A DNA stretch of 20,182 nucleotides, taken from positions 1 through 20,182 of IMG/VR virus record IMGVR_UViG_3300037258_000390, one strand, 5' to 3'. Positions 11,688 to 20,182 of the stretch are shown here, one piece after another (the first letter of the stretch is position 1; each line of letters starts with the position of its first letter). Below the pieces are notes generated by a model. It saw only the letters and a program-made list of their open reading frames with translations. It did no database searches and was not told the origin of the DNA. This DNA is from a virus. Made by a program: the position numbers and the translations under genes.

Positions 11688-11879
11688 ATGACCGCAGACT
11701 CCAATCTCGCCGACGCTCAGCGCGCCAACCGCGAGCGCCGCGAAGCGCGAGAGATCGCGGTCTTGGAGACCGCCAACAAGATCATGGCCGAGACCGGATG
11801 CGACTTCTCGGCCGCGTTTGCCGAAGCGCAGAAGACCGCTGGACCGGGGACCATCCGTCCTTGGCGGGCCCAGTCATGA
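11688..11879 (+). CDS. Small helical protein (63 aa), first of rightward operon
   Basis: The ATG at 11688 has AAAGGA 6 bases before it. The protein is almost all helix: DAQRANRERREAREIAVLETANKIMAETGCDFSAAFAEAQKTAG. The segment AETGCDFSAAFAEAQK resembles the short helix-hairpin seen in phage proteins that describe a 'T..DF..A...' unit near mu gpT or capsid assembly factors, but the match is too short to assign. The stop overlaps the DUF3846 start (ATGA), giving coupling. Function unknown. Confidence 0.75.
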   Translation: MTADSNLADAQRANRERREAREIAVLETANKIMAETGCDFSAAFAEAQKTAGPGTIRPWRAQS

Positions 11880-12289
11880 AGGCGCTGGTCATCCCCGTCG
11901 AAGGCCCGCTCTACTGGATGGACCTCGGCGGCGACAACGACCTGCCGACGCTCCAAGCAGCCGTCGGCGGATTCATCGAAGCGGTCCGCTTGCCAGAGTT
12001 CGTCGACCCCGCCGGATGCGCCACCGGCTACATCAACGAGGAAGGCAAGCTCGTCGACGAGCCCGAGGTCAACTGGCGCGCCACAGACTTCATGGTGCCC
12101 GGCGTCGGCCTGCGCTGGGGCGACTTCATTGCCGGGCCCATGGTGCTCGTCGGCTTCGACCCTTCGACCGGCCTGCACGAACGGCTGCCAGAGAAGGTCG
12201 AGGCGCGCGCACGGCTCATCGAACGCGAAGCCGGGACCGTCGCCGAAGACGACCCGCGCCTCGGCGACCGCCAAGACGGTTTGCGATGA
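11876..12289 (+). CDS. DUF3846 family protein
   Basis: 137 aa from ATG 11876. The layout matches DUF3846: a KALVIPVEGPLYWMDL opening, LPTLQAAVGGFIEAVRLPEF, GYINEEGKLVDEPEVNWRAT and FIAGPMVLVGFD. DUF3846 proteins are small phage and plasmid accessory proteins of unknown function, often in early operons. Unlike a usual member, it carries an extra C-terminal part of about 30 residues. This ends in DDPRLGDRQDGLR, which is nearly identical to the tail of the protein at 12693-12968. The stop overlaps the ATG at 12286. Confidence 0.85.
   Translation: MKALVIPVEGPLYWMDLGGDNDLPTLQAAVGGFIEAVRLPEFVDPAGCATGYINEEGKLVDEPEVNWRATDFMVPGVGLRWGDFIAGPMVLVGFDPSTGLHERLPEKVEARARLIEREAGTVAEDDPRLGDRQDGLR
12248..12289 (+). 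repeat. C-terminal tail repeat, copy 1
   Basis: A 42-base segment encoding the last 13 residues plus stop of the DUF3846 protein. It matches 12927-12968 at 35 of 42 bases. Twelve of 13 encoded residues are identical (Gln versus Glu is the only change), and five of the seven base differences are silent. Confidence 0.85.
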
Positions 12290-12490
12290 CCAACGCCGCC
12301 GACCCTCGCGGCCCACTGCGCAACCGTCCGCACGGTCGAGTCGACCCCCGAGGCACACCATGTCACGTTCGAGGAGTGCACGCACTCCTCGCGGCTGACC
12401 CGGCCCCCAACTTCGCCGCAACCGAAGGCCGGGGAGCGCTTGAGGTGCTTCGCCTGCGGACCGAGAACTTCCAACGAAAGGACCCCATGA
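12286..12490 (+). pseudogene. Frameshifted small Cys-pair protein gene
   Basis: ATG 12286 overlaps the DUF3846 stop (ATGA), and the first ~13 codons read MTNAADPRGPLRN. From about 12325 on, the protein-like reading lies one base ahead: EAHHVTFEECTHSSRL then AGERLRCFACGPRTS, stopping at TGA 12488-12490. That stop overlaps the next gene's ATG 12487, as real genes here do. The pattern His-x-Val-x-Phe-Glu-x-Cys ... Arg-Cys-Phe-x-Cys-Gly resembles small zinc-type actinophage proteins. The Cys-containing frame has no ATG, GTG or TTG after the 12289 stop. A one-base indel (real or sequencing error), +1 frameshifting, or a non-standard start are alternatives. The frame from 12286 itself stays open to 12696, but its middle reads unlike a protein. 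Confidence 0.55.
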
Positions 12491-12696
12491 TGGGACGACG
12501 CAAGAAGGAGCCGACGTTCATCGAACGCCTCGGCTACGACCTCACCGACCACTCGCGGCAGCTAGCCGAGCGCCGCCGCGAGATCGCGATCCAGCAGCAC
12601 GTGCTGCACCGCGAGGACCTGGCGCTCACACGGGAGCAGACCGCGACCGCGCGCGCCCGGCAGAAACTCGGCCTCGACAGGGGCGATGGGCGATGA
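12487..12696 (+). CDS. Small charged coiled-coil-like protein (69 aa)
   Basis: ATG 12487 overlaps the upstream stop; a second ATG at 12490 is better spaced from AAAGGA (12477-12482) and may be the true start. The protein is helical and highly charged: MGRRKKEPTFIERLGYDLTD, then HSRQLAERRREIAIQQHVLH and REDLALTREQTATARARQK, suggesting a coiled coil. The end LGLDRGDGR is loosely like the tail shared by two neighbours. Function unknown. ATGA coupling to the next gene. Confidence 0.7.
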   Translation: MMGRRKKEPTFIERLGYDLTDHSRQLAERRREIAIQQHVLHREDLALTREQTATARARQKLGLDRGDGR

Positions 12697-12968
12697 GCCG
12701 CGAGGCCACCCATCACGTGCGCCTGCTCGGCGCCGGCGCAGTACTCGGGCCACACGCCGGAATCTACGCCGCGCAGAAGGACGCGCTCGAGGCCGCGCGC
12801 CAGGCGATGCGCGAGTCTGGCATGTGGCCCGGCGAGGAAGTGCTCCGCCATGTCATCGACTCCTACCTCCAGACCATGGTCGAACACGAGAAGGCGCACG
12901 ACCCGGTCGAGCTCGCATTAGCTCATGACGACCCGCGGCTGGGCGACCGGGAGGACGGGCTGCGATGA
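12693..12968 (+). CDS. Small helical protein (91 aa) with shared C-terminal tail
   Basis: ATG 12693 overlaps the previous stop. The protein has an N-terminal HHVRLLGAGAVLGPHAG segment, then amphipathic helices (DALEAARQAMRESGMWPG, EEVLRHVIDSYLQTMVEHEK). It ends in DDPRLGDREDGLR, matching the DUF3846 protein's tail at 12 of 13 residues, although the rest of the two proteins is unrelated. No known domain. The stop overlaps the next start (ATGA). Confidence 0.75.
   Translation: MSREATHHVRLLGAGAVLGPHAGIYAAQKDALEAARQAMRESGMWPGEEVLRHVIDSYLQTMVEHEKAHDPVELALAHDDPRLGDREDGLR
12927..12968 (+). repeat. C-terminal tail repeat, copy 2
   Basis: This is the partner of the 12248-12289 segment, at the very end of the 91-aa gene. 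Both copies finish in CGATGA, which also supplies the next gene's ATG, so the repeat carries the coupled stop/start junction as well as the peptide. Confidence 0.85.
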
Positions 12969-13267
12969 CCCAGCGCTACACCTACGCGCGGCGAGCAGAC
13001 GGCCTGTTCAACCTGCTCCGCGACGGCCAGGTCATCGGCAAGGCCGAGACCAAGCTCGCCGCGCGCCGCTACGTCGACGACAAGAACGGGCCGCAACAGA
13101 CCGACGTCGCGAGCTGGGGCTGGGCGCTCGCGATCATCATGCCGATCATCGGGTTCGTCCTCGGCGCGATCGTCACCGCGACGCGCCGCGACCAGGCCGG
13201 CCAAGGCGTCGCCATCATGATCCTCTCGGTCGTGATGACGATCGTCTGGGCCGCGGTACTTCGATGA
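12965..13267 (+). CDS. Small two-helix membrane protein (100 aa)
   Basis: ATG 12965 by ATGA overlap. The N-terminal half is soluble and slightly basic (RYTYARRADGLFNLLRDGQVIGKAETKLAARRYVDD), resembling a small beta/alpha cap. Two hydrophobic helices follow: SWGWALAIIMPIIGFVLGAI (~50-70) and VAIMILSVVMTIVWAAVL (~82-99). No signal peptide or holin-like charge pattern is clear, and its early-operon position argues against lysis. Many phages encode small inner-membrane proteins that affect superinfection or host physiology; a role here is inference. Confidence 0.78.
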   Translation: MTQRYTYARRADGLFNLLRDGQVIGKAETKLAARRYVDDKNGPQQTDVASWGWALAIIMPIIGFVLGAIVTATRRDQAGQGVAIMILSVVMTIVWAAVLR

Positions 13268-13731
13268 GCCTGGCGATCCGCGACCTCAGCGTCGACGTCG
13301 CGCTCGTGCATGCGCGCGACGGCCGGCTCGCCACGATCAGAAGCATGCACCGCAAGGACCGGTCGGCCAGCCTTCGCATCGAAGGCATCGGCCAGACCGA
13401 GGTCCCCTTCACCGAGCTTCGCCGCAACTGGCGGCTCGCCACCACTCACCAGGAGGAACCTGTCATGCCCGCAGTCAAGACCCCCGCCACGCCGAAGACC
13501 CCCGCGAAGGCTAAGGCCACATCGAAGGCCCCGTCGTTTCGCAGCGAGGCCGTCGCCGTCCTCAAGGCCACCGGCGAGCCGATGCACGTCAACGAGCTCT
13601 ACTCCGCGATCCTCAAGCGCGGCAAGCTCAAGCCCGGAGGACTGACGCCGCAGGCCACCCTCAACGCCGTGCTGATCCGCAGCAGCGAGTTCGAGCGGAC
13701 CGCGCCGGGGACCTGGAAGCTCGCCGCCTAA
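13264..13731 (+). CDS. HARE-HTH domain protein (155 aa, with internal second start)
   Basis: ATG 13264 overlaps the previous stop. Residues 1-65 are a beta-rich region (DVALVHARDGRLATIRSM, SLRIEGIGQTEVPFTELRR). Residues 68-90 are a Pro/Lys/Ala linker. Residues ~90-155 match the HARE-HTH (HB1/ASXL-type) winged helix: SEAVAVLKATGEPMHVNEL, YSAILKRGKLKPGGLTPQATL, PGTWKLA. HARE-HTH domains link to DNA modification and restriction factors. An AGGAGG (13451-13456) sits 8 bases before in-frame ATG 13465, so an 88-aa form with only the linker and HTH is likely made too. It may be a former two-gene pair whose intervening stop was lost. It ends tail-to-tail with the methyltransferase, 4 bases overlapping. 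Confidence 0.8.
   Translation: MSLAIRDLSVDVALVHARDGRLATIRSMHRKDRSASLRIEGIGQTEVPFTELRRNWRLATTHQEEPVMPAVKTPATPKTPAKAKATSKAPSFRSEAVAVLKATGEPMHVNELYSAILKRGKLKPGGLTPQATLNAVLIRSSEFERTAPGTWKLAA
13451..13467 (+). promoter_or_regulatory. Internal ribosome binding site and start (HARE-HTH short form)
   Basis: AGGAGG at 13451-13456, an 8-base spacer, then ATG 13465 in frame with the long protein. It is one of the best ribosome sites in the window and lies in codons that would otherwise encode an unremarkable linker. The short form is 88 aa and contains the whole HTH domain. Confidence 0.65.
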
Positions 13732-14963
13732 GCGGCCTGACGCCGCCTGGGGCGCGCGGCCAGTTTCGCGCGCGCCCCGGTGTGGCGCTCCCATCTGTCG
13801 ACCACGACGTCGACATAGGCCGGGTCGATCTCCATCGCGTAGCACGCGCGGCCGAGGTTCTCCGCCGCGATCAGCGTCGTCCCCGACCCGACGAACGGGT
13901 CGTAGACGGTCTCGAACTCGTGGTTGCGGATCGGGCGGGCCATGAGCTCGAGCGGCTTCTGCGTCGAGTGGCCACCGTCGACGTTGCGGTCCAGGCCGAC
14001 CTCCCACACCGTCGTCTGCTTCGCGTCGCCGCACCACCTGGCGGTAGCTCCGGCGCGGACCGCGTACCAGCACGGCTCGTGCCGCCAGTTGTAGTGGCCG
14101 CGGCTGATCGGGAAGTGCGGCTTCGACCAGATCAGCTGGTTGCGCACCACGTAGCCGGCCTGCTCGAGGCTCGCCTGGACGGTGCTGGCATGCCGGTCGG
14201 CATGCCAGACGTAGGCGACGTCAGCGCCGGCGATCTCCCACGCCTCGGTCCAGTCCGCGCGATCGTCGTTGGCGACGTGGCCTACGCGGCTCGCCGCGTA
14301 GGCCAGATGCCCGGCCTCCGCGGCCTCCTGCCGCCACTCCGGCCGGTAGTCGACACCATAGGGCGGGTCGGTCACGAGCAGGCCCGCCGGCCCGTTGTCG
14401 AAGAGCAGCTGCACGTCCACTAGCGACGTCGCGTCACCGCACAGCAGCCGGTGCGCGCCTAGCAGGTAGAGGTCACCGCGCCGGGTCTTCGGATCCGCGG
14501 GCGGCTCGCGCGGCTCGGTGTCACGGCCGTCCTGCGGCTGCTGCGAGGCGAGCAGCCGCGCCAAGTCCCGATCCGTGAACGCCGTCGCCTCGAACAGCGC
14601 CCGGTCACCCTCATGCACCGACGTCAGCATGTCGAGGAGCGCCTGGTCGTCGTAGCCGCCAAGCTCCGCCGTGTGATTGTCGGCGAGCGCATAGGCCTGC
14701 GCCATCGTGTCGTCGTCGTCGACCCACACGACCGCGATCTCCGCCCAGCCCAGCCGCTTCGCCGCAGCCAGCTGATGGTTGCCGGCGATCACCGTGCCGC
14801 GACCGCGCGGGCGCCGGCGCGCGACGATCGGCTTGCGCTGCCCGAACGCCTCATACGACCGGGCGACCGCGTCGACGTCGCCGACCCTCGGGTTGCCCGG
14901 AAGCGGGTCGAGCTTCGCGACCGGGAACGCCAGCGCGGCGAGGTCCTTGACGATGCCCGGCAT
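13728..14963 (-). CDS. ParB-like domain / DNA methyltransferase fusion
   Basis: 411 aa. N-terminal ParB/sulfiredoxin-like domain (1-~140) with LPGNPR, IAGNHQLAAAKRLGWAEI (a GxH-type motif) and a helical extension. The methyltransferase follows: motif IV DPPYGVDY (~199-206), HSTQKP (~332-337), and SAM-binding DPFVGSGTTLIAAEN (~355-369). Catalytic motif before SAM motif indicates the beta-class N6-adenine/N4-cytosine type. Phage and mobile-element ParB-MTase fusions usually protect DNA from host restriction; no restriction enzyme is visible here. ATG 14963 lacks a ribosome site but has a TAGGCT box 7 bases upstream. It is a lone leftward gene between rightward operons, looking like an inserted cassette. 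Confidence 0.92.
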   Translation of the reverse strand: MPGIVKDLAALAFPVAKLDPLPGNPRVGDVDAVARSYEAFGQRKPIVARRRPRGRGTVIAGNHQLAAAKRLGWAEIAVVWVDDDDTMAQAYALADNHTAELGGYDDQALLDMLTSVHEGDRALFEATAFTDRDLARLLASQQPQDGRDTEPREPPADPKTRRGDLYLLGAHRLLCGDATSLVDVQLLFDNGPAGLLVTDPPYGVDYRPEWRQEAAEAGHLAYAASRVGHVANDDRADWTEAWEIAGADVAYVWHADRHASTVQASLEQAGYVVRNQLIWSKPHFPISRGHYNWRHEPCWYAVRAGATARWCGDAKQTTVWEVGLDRNVDGGHSTQKPLELMARPIRNHEFETVYDPFVGSGTTLIAAENLGRACYAMEIDPAYVDVVVDRWERHTGARAKLAARPRRRQAA

Positions 14964-17766: not shown

Positions 17767-18753
17767 ATGACCGAACCGAGCACCGAGCTCGAGCGCTTCC
17801 AGCCACGCCCGCAGGCCGTCGTTCCGGCCGCGCTACCGACCGGCGCGGAGATCGACTCGCTCGTCCGCCTGGGCCGCATGCTCAGCAGCGCGCTCACCAC
17901 CTCAAGCGACCTGCTCAGCGTCGACAAGGCCGTCACGAAGATCCTCTTGGGCCGCGACCTCGGCCTCACGCCGGCGCAGGCGATGCAGCTGATCCACATC
18001 TTCGACGGGCACGTCCAGATGCACTACTCCGGCCTGCTCGGTTTCATCCGCGCCCGCGACGGCTACGACTACCGCATCGTCGAGAACACCGTCGAGCGGT
18101 GCACGATCGTCGCGACCGCGAGCGACTGGCGCGGCATGGGCTTCTATCAGGTCGCCGAGAAGGACGAGCCGGTCGAGGCGGGGGTGACCTGGACGGCGAG
18201 CGGCAACTACGACTTCCGCGTCACGACGACGATGCAGATGGCCGACGCCGAGGGCTGGTCGAAGAAGCGCTCCGGCGCGACGAAGGAGATGTGGCAGAAG
18301 ATGCCCAGGGTGATGCTGCTCGCCCGCGCGGCGTCGACGCTGGTCCGCCAGCACATGCCCGAGGTCTGCAACGGGATGCCGGTCTACGTCGACGACGAGA
18401 TCGAGATGATCCGCGCGCGCCTCAGCGCCGGCGACGGGTCCGGCGACGCCGCCGGGCACGAGCTTCCCCAGGCCGTCGAGCGGCTGCTCCTGGATGCCAG
18501 GGCGGTCGGCTACAAGCCGCTCTCCGACCGCGGCGTGATCGAGCTCGTCGTCCACGGCCGCGACGACAGCGAGGTCACGGCGTGGCTGCAACAGTCGCGC
18601 ATCGAGCTTGACGCCTTCATCGCCGACCGCGACGCCCGCGTCGCAGCCGCCGAGCAGCCCGCAGCCGAGCCTGAGACTCCGCCCGAGGGCGAGGAAGAGG
18701 TCGCCGACGCCGAGGTCGTCACCGAGGCTCCTGATGCCCCGCCAGCCGAGTAG
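17767..18753 (+). CDS. recT: RecT-family single-strand annealing protein
   Basis: 328 aa from ATG 17767 with GAGGAGG upstream. Such proteins anneal complementary single strands during phage recombination and replication. Typical order: AVTKILLGRDLGLTPAQAMQ (~55-75), LIHIFDGHVQMHYSGLLGFI, GYDYRIVENTVERCTIVATA, MWQKMPRVMLLARAASTLVR (~177-196) and HMPEVCNGM. The acidic Glu/Ala tail is common in RecT ends. Starts after a dyad leader and lies in one operon with a PD-(D/E)XK nuclease beginning at 19668, its expected partner. The final 20 bases overlap the XRE gene. Confidence 0.88.
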   Translation: MTEPSTELERFQPRPQAVVPAALPTGAEIDSLVRLGRMLSSALTTSSDLLSVDKAVTKILLGRDLGLTPAQAMQLIHIFDGHVQMHYSGLLGFIRARDGYDYRIVENTVERCTIVATASDWRGMGFYQVAEKDEPVEAGVTWTASGNYDFRVTTTMQMADAEGWSKKRSGATKEMWQKMPRVMLLARAASTLVRQHMPEVCNGMPVYVDDEIEMIRARLSAGDGSGDAAGHELPQAVERLLLDARAVGYKPLSDRGVIELVVHGRDDSEVTAWLQQSRIELDAFIADRDARVAAAEQPAAEPETPPEGEEEVADAEVVTEAPDAPPAE

Positions 18754-19403: not shown

Positions 19404-19675
19404 GCCTGTTCGCCGATGCGCTGGCCGCGATCGCCGACGAGCGCGCCGTCAACCAGGAGCACGCACTCGACGAGGACACCATCCAGGTGATGCTCGACCG
19501 TCACGGCGTCGACTACTCCGACGCCTCGCCAATCGTCGGCCGGATCATCCAGCACTTCTGTGGCGAAGTGGGCCTCAGCGACGACGCGGCCAAGGCGCTG
19601 ATGACGACGTTCGCGTACGGCATCGCGCTCGGCCGCCACATCGAACGACTCGAGAGAGGAACCCCCGATGAGTGA
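19400..19675 (+). CDS. Small acidic helical protein (91 aa)
   Basis: GTG 19400 overlaps the previous stop. The protein is acidic and mostly helical: SLFADALAAIADERAVNQEH, DTIQVMLDRHGVDYSDAS, GRIIQHFCGEVGLSDDAAKA, and GIALGRHIERLERG. No Cys pairs or membrane segments. It lies directly before the nuclease gene, overlapping it by 8 bases, and may act with the recombination module. That is inference from position. Confidence 0.7.
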   Translation: MSLFADALAAIADERAVNQEHALDEDTIQVMLDRHGVDYSDASPIVGRIIQHFCGEVGLSDDAAKALMTTFAYGIALGRHIERLERGTPDE

Positions 19676-20182
19676 ACGCAGCTACCGGCAGTCCCTTGTG
19701 CGCCAGCACGACGCGTGCCCGCTCTCAGCCGTGTGGACCGAACACGACCAGACGCCGGAATGGTCGACGCCCGAGCAGGCGCTCGGCTCGGTGTTCCACG
19801 CGATCGCCGCGGAGATGCTCGCGACGATGCGTCGCACCGACGAGAGCCGCATCCCGACCGAGGAGGCGCTGGTAATCGCGCACGAGGTCCAGGCGCGGCC
19901 CGACGTGCCGCACCTCACGCACGAGCAGCGCGCGACGCTCCGGATCATGGTGTTGCAGTTCGCGTCTCATACCTGGCACGCCGACCGGATCATCGCCATC
20001 GAAGAGCCGCTCGCCGCAGACATCGCTTGCCCCGATGGCGTCGTTCGTAAACTCACCGGCCGTCCCGACCTCCTCATCGGCGACCCGCCCGGCGGACTGA
20101 TCATCGTCGACTACAAGAGCGGGTGGGCCAAGCCGCCCGAGCCCAGGGACGGCAACTGGCTGCGCGAGAACGGCCGGCCCTA
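19668..20182 (+). CDS. PD-(D/E)XK (RecB-like) nuclease, partial
   Basis: Runs off the right edge; 171 codons are visible. ATG 19668 with GAGAGGA upstream. It opens SYRQSLVRQHDACPLSAVW, has GSVFHAIAAEML (~41-52, the family's early His motif), and the active site TGRPDLLI (Asp134) followed by LIIVDYKSG (Asp148, Lys150). This is the D...D-x-K core of RecB/Cas4-type exonucleases. Such nucleases resect DNA ends so that RecT-type proteins can anneal. Whether an iron-sulphur Cys cluster follows (Cys17 would be its first member) cannot be seen. The 5' part is intact. Confidence 0.88.
   Translation, partial: MSERSYRQSLVRQHDACPLSAVWTEHDQTPEWSTPEQALGSVFHAIAAEMLATMRRTDESRIPTEEALVIAHEVQARPDVPHLTHEQRATLRIMVLQFASHTWHADRIIAIEEPLAADIACPDGVVRKLTGRPDLLIGDPPGGLIIVDYKSGWAKPPEPRDGNWLRENGRP

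Follow-up and report, generated by a model that had tools for sequence, protein, structure and literature searches.

A C-terminal tail shared by two unrelated early phage proteins, a candidate case of gene-end copying

The sharing of homologous fragments between otherwise unrelated phage proteins (domain mosaicism) is well documented, in a study that compares profile-detectable fragments and domains (PMC10684548). Short repeats of another kind, the start-associated sequences (SAS/ESAS) of Cluster K mycobacteriophages, are about 13 bp long, numerous, positioned upstream of start codons, and conserved as DNA (PMC3203893). We analyzed a 20,182-nucleotide stretch of viral DNA (IMG/VR record IMGVR_UViG_3300037258_000390; here called the window) in which a DUF3846 protein and a 91-aa orphan protein both end in DDPRLGDR(Q/E)DGLR-stop. 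This arrangement resembles fragment mosaicism in that unrelated proteins have a homologous stretch in common, in our reading through recombination, but differs in that the stretch is 13 residues long, lies at the extreme C terminus, and has both of its carriers in one genome. Like the SAS/ESAS, the repeats are short and lie at gene junctions adjoining start codons; unlike them, they number two, stand in coding frame, are conserved as peptide, and include one copy without a ribosome site. The first protein belongs by its core to the DUF3846 family (PF12957/phrog_3777); its tail falls beyond the domain, and none of the relatives that we examined has it. We give slightly better than even chances to the reading that recombination copied the end of one gene onto another gene of the same phage lineage, leaving the tail in both.

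The shared tail and its two carriers

The two carriers, the tail copies, and the genes that adjoin them are arranged as follows.

11876-12289, + strand: DUF3846 protein, 137 aa (PF12957, E = 1.8e-10; phrog_3777, E = 1.7e-9); the core ends near residue 120 and is followed by the tail
12248-12289, + strand: tail copy 1, DDPRLGDRQDGLR-stop, the end of the DUF3846 gene
12290-12490, + strand: probable zinc-knuckle ORF (EECTH...RCFACG), indicated by GC content by codon position and, for 12296-12391, by codon likelihood
12487-12696, + strand: 69-aa ORF without a family match, with strong codon likelihood and the Shine-Dalgarno sequence GAAAGGA
12693-12968, + strand: 91-aa orphan protein, predicted helical, without family or homologue, carrying tail copy 2
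12927-12968, + strand: tail copy 2, DDPRLGDREDGLR-stop, the end of the 91-aa ORF
12965-13267, + strand: 100-aa membrane-protein-like gene that starts at the copy 2 ATGA overlap, with a strong Shine-Dalgarno sequence (-10.3 kcal/mol); its DUF7144/DUF4190-type matches are weak and below cutoff

The preliminary description of this DNA had reported a tail common to both C termini with 35 of 42 bases matching, which direct translation and a comparison of self-matches confirm. The two copies agree in 12 of 13 residues, and the repeat continues 2 bases beyond the stop codon, to ATGACC (37/44 bases). The 35/42 match is the top ungapped 42-mer self-match in the window (next best, 31), and in 20 order-3 Markov sequences the best 42-mer self-match per sequence ranged from 29 to 32. 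Because the match exceeds these maxima, and because the copies agree in frame and both reach precisely to the stop codon, chance is excluded for practical purposes. The remainder of the two proteins is unrelated, as had also been proposed: the cores give only a weak, out-of-register alignment, leaving the tail as a homologous fragment in two otherwise unrelated proteins. The 91-aa protein had been placed two genes after the DUF3846 protein; in fact, both the probable zinc-knuckle ORF and the 69-aa ORF stand between them.

The window is a single metagenomic contig, and the ORF that follows copy 1 has no start codon and might reflect an assembly indel, both of which could be taken to favor an origin by chance, by convergence, or by faulty assembly. 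We consider this very improbable; 35/42 lies above every simulated sequence, the copies share frame and position at the stop codon, and a misassembly would yield identical copies rather than silently diverged ones.

We also surveyed C termini for pairs of ORFs with at least 10 of 13 C-terminal residues in common, and no other unrelated, nonrepetitive pair was found in 1.19 Mb of fetched phage and host loci plus the window. Other common C termini in the fetched loci belonged to full-length paralogues (L133 and L141), pentapeptide-like or tandem repeats, and spurious frames. The L133 (3884, 6165) and L141 (3472, 5024) paralogues, two per phage, encode a short coiled protein whose C terminus reads LAK(T/V)T..(T/S)VL(V/M)TA, and a DUF3846-like gene is found nearby.

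The 91-aa protein has no family match and no homologue in phages, viral contigs, genome contigs, or six related phage records; a comparison to a related metagenome-assembled genome (MAG) gave a single insignificant match (E = 0.05). Its model, a single-sequence fold of low confidence (pLDDT 61.7), is helical. No solved structure matched either protein significantly, and a fold search of the DUF3846 model against the PDB likewise returned nothing significant.

Silent divergence and distribution of the tail

The two copies differ at seven bases, of which six are silent or silent given the other; the preliminary description had counted five. Six codons are changed, five of them synonymously, and the sixth (CAA/GAG) accounts for the Q/E difference. 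The probability of at most one residue change arising from seven random substitutions is 0.0007 to 0.0026, depending on the model (approximately 0.001 to 0.003). With silent changes at all but one of the seven differing bases, the sequences support purifying selection on the peptide somewhere in the history of the copies. Silent divergence is near saturation by a hand estimate from the counts (∼10 silent sites), which indicates that the copies are not recent in-place duplicates of each other. The earlier proposal of selection on the peptide without a fresh copy is therefore backed by the silent bias, and the comparison of silent with nonsilent changes that it had called for is the one given here (6/7 silent; P ∼0.001 to 0.003). 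The bias points to no particular gene, nor does it establish that both proteins were selected; the differences could predate transfer, having arisen between 91-aa orthologues in two phages.

The DUF3846 assignment rests on a PF12957 profile match over residues 1 to 107 that scores 41.4 bits against a gathering score of 27.5. We compared the protein to five sequence-distinct relatives, comprising four phage sequences (L024/L025, near-identical to each other and counted as one, L026, L027, and L028) and one Actinomycetes MAG (L104), which are 54 to 60% identical to it over the core only. The 13-residue tail is absent from all five, and the more distant relatives examined also lack it, so that it does not appear as a feature of the family. 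Conservation ends at a common helix, RARLIEREA, and the C termini of the relatives all differ (EARTREETR, EREAS, EREATSRDLPRVADADVVD..., EEEAGPPSV..., and EREAC). Different genes follow DUF3846 in these relatives, indicating that its 3' boundary is a mosaic junction. In L027, the DUF3846 protein is extended as well, and the extension faintly resembles the tail (RDLPRVADADVVD). The resemblance could be a sign that the tail is native to DUF3846, although it is too weak to weigh much.

Four degenerate DNA pattern scans, strict and loose, were run over 2.9 million viral contigs (IMG/VR) and recovered 0, 18, 0, and 28 stretches. No genuine C-terminal copy of the tail was present among them, with the proviso that tails of strongly diverged sequence would escape patterns built on exact codons. 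Stretches near a stop codon were antisense, frameless, or noncoding, and the rest were internal. The most tempting match (L173; ...DPRLGDREDGLV-stop) is antisense to a 1,065-aa gene, and another (L018) is internal to a long ORF. A widespread C-terminal tag is not supported, as the tail was not seen to recur at C termini in related genomes. The functional-tag reading of the preliminary description, which was to fall if homologues in related phages lacked the tail, fails on that ground for DUF3846, and its suggested search for the tail as a C-terminal pattern across phage genomes found no genuine copy elsewhere.

These results bear on the possibility that the tail is a lineage-private C-terminal short linear motif, spread by gene-end duplication and then selected on both proteins, through which the two small early proteins would bind one phage or host partner. 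The retention of 12 of 13 residues against six silent changes in seven (P = 0.001 to 0.003) and the exact C-terminal position in both proteins would be expected of such a motif, and the tail is predicted to follow a helix in both proteins and to be disordered in DUF3846. An AlphaFold2 model of the latter (six sequences; mean pLDDT 78.7) places residues 123 to 137 below a pLDDT of 50, a value partly expected because the homologues lack that part, and the predicted disorder is compatible with a remnant and a binding motif alike. The motif is nevertheless missing from all close DUF3846 relatives, the four pattern scans found no further instance in IMG/VR, and with two copies only, selection in one family would be enough to produce the silent bias. 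We accordingly regard a binding motif as the main rival reading, with odds clearly against it. Its stronger form, in which a lineage-specific C-terminal address tag moved from one early protein to an unrelated one and selection then maintained it so that both reach a common partner, appears doubtful, at perhaps one chance in five.

The two ATGA junctions

Both copies carry the ATGA junction that had been described as coupled, and to that extent the description stands; a Shine-Dalgarno sequence and a convincing downstream gene are found at copy 2 only. Copy 2 encodes a strong Shine-Dalgarno sequence for the next gene (CGGGAGGA; GGGAGGA; -10.3 kcal/mol). Copy 1, with only CAAGACGGT (-2.9 kcal/mol), lacks a ribosome site, and translation from the ATG at 12286 would run in a frame other than the coding one. 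Farther along the early operon is an 88-aa HARE-HTH protein (13465-13731, + strand; PF05066, E = 1.6e-13), and on the opposite strand lies a 411-aa fusion of a ParB-N-like domain and an N6/N4 DNA methylase (13728-14963, - strand), with a ParB_N match just below cutoff.

The probable zinc-knuckle ORF after copy 1 lies in the DUF3846 frame directly after the DUF3846 TGA and encodes a CxH...CxxC knuckle. It has no ATG, GTG, or TTG near its beginning and hence no usable start codon, and neither the phage records nor a set of six related phage records gave a homologue. The codon signal shifts to the 12286 frame after ∼12392, which makes the zinc-knuckle assignment uncertain. Possible explanations for the missing start are a frameshift, loss of the start in recombination, stop readthrough, or an assembly indel. 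A junction of this kind would be expected if a gene end had been copied along with a foreign start codon, although an assembly indel could mimic it.

Could the repeat instead be a junction element that acts as DNA or RNA, serving translation coupling in the manner of start-associated sequences, with the shared peptide as a by-product? Both copies do lie on an ATGA stop/start overlap, a Shine-Dalgarno sequence falls within copy 2, and the Cluster K sequences offer a precedent (PMC3203893). Those sequences stand in many copies immediately 5' of starts, whereas the window holds two copies with no third at its other junctions, and ribosome-binding complementarity is not a property of each copy. 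The base differences also fall at silent positions, and this explanation is disfavored because the copy 1 ribosome site is missing while the peptide is kept; we consider it improbable.

Origin and implications of the tail

In the reading we favor, recombination at a gene boundary would have attached the 3' end of a 91-aa-type gene, with its last 13 codons, its stop codon, and the ATGACC at which the next gene begins in overlap, to the DUF3846 3' end, giving DUF3846 a disordered extension that its relatives do not have. Purifying selection on the peptide would most simply have acted within the 91-aa family, possibly before transfer between phages. The sequences show that the tails match beyond chance, that their differences are mainly silent, that DUF3846 relatives lack the tail, and that copy 1 has no ribosome site; which way the end was copied, by what route, and where selection acted are what we infer, and proof of the direction would take a 91-aa homologue. 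Two further genes in the window may have aided the event.

17767-18753, + strand: RecT-like single-strand annealing protein, a possible recombination agent (PF03837, E = 2.9e-5; 24.1 bits against a cutoff of 24)
19668-20182, + strand: PD-(D/E)XK nuclease that runs off the window, a possible partner of the RecT-like protein (PF12705, E = 5.6e-16)

A RecT-like protein and a PD-(D/E)XK nuclease are a pair typical of annealing-based recombination, and these two are likely such a pair, which makes them a plausible agent for the copying and no proof of it.

Gene-end copying is favored because the five relatives, each ending differently after RARLIEREA, lack the tail; because the DUF3846 3' boundary is a mosaic junction in those relatives; and because the repeat takes in the start codon of the downstream gene. 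It is favored also because copy 2 has both a strong Shine-Dalgarno sequence and a real next gene where copy 1 has neither, because the ORF after copy 1 appears without its start, and because the tail is disordered in the model. The nearby RecT-like and PD-(D/E)XK genes and the documented sharing of protein fragments among phages (PMC10684548) favor it as well. The preliminary description had offered a remnant of gene-end duplication as an alternative to a tag, and this fits better, with relatives that lack the tail and no other tail found.

Several observations count against gene-end copying. Six silent changes in ∼10 silent sites point to an old separation or to different source phages, and a useless DUF3846 tail should have drifted by now, yet the copies differ in a single residue. 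The analysis found no donor genome, and the faint resemblance in L027 could mean that the tail is native to DUF3846.

If gene-end copying is the true explanation, the locus would be a small, clear case of phage proteins gaining new C termini at gene boundaries. If instead both proteins make use of the peptide, the tail would be a tag specific to the lineage and would indicate a shared partner of two uncharacterized early proteins.
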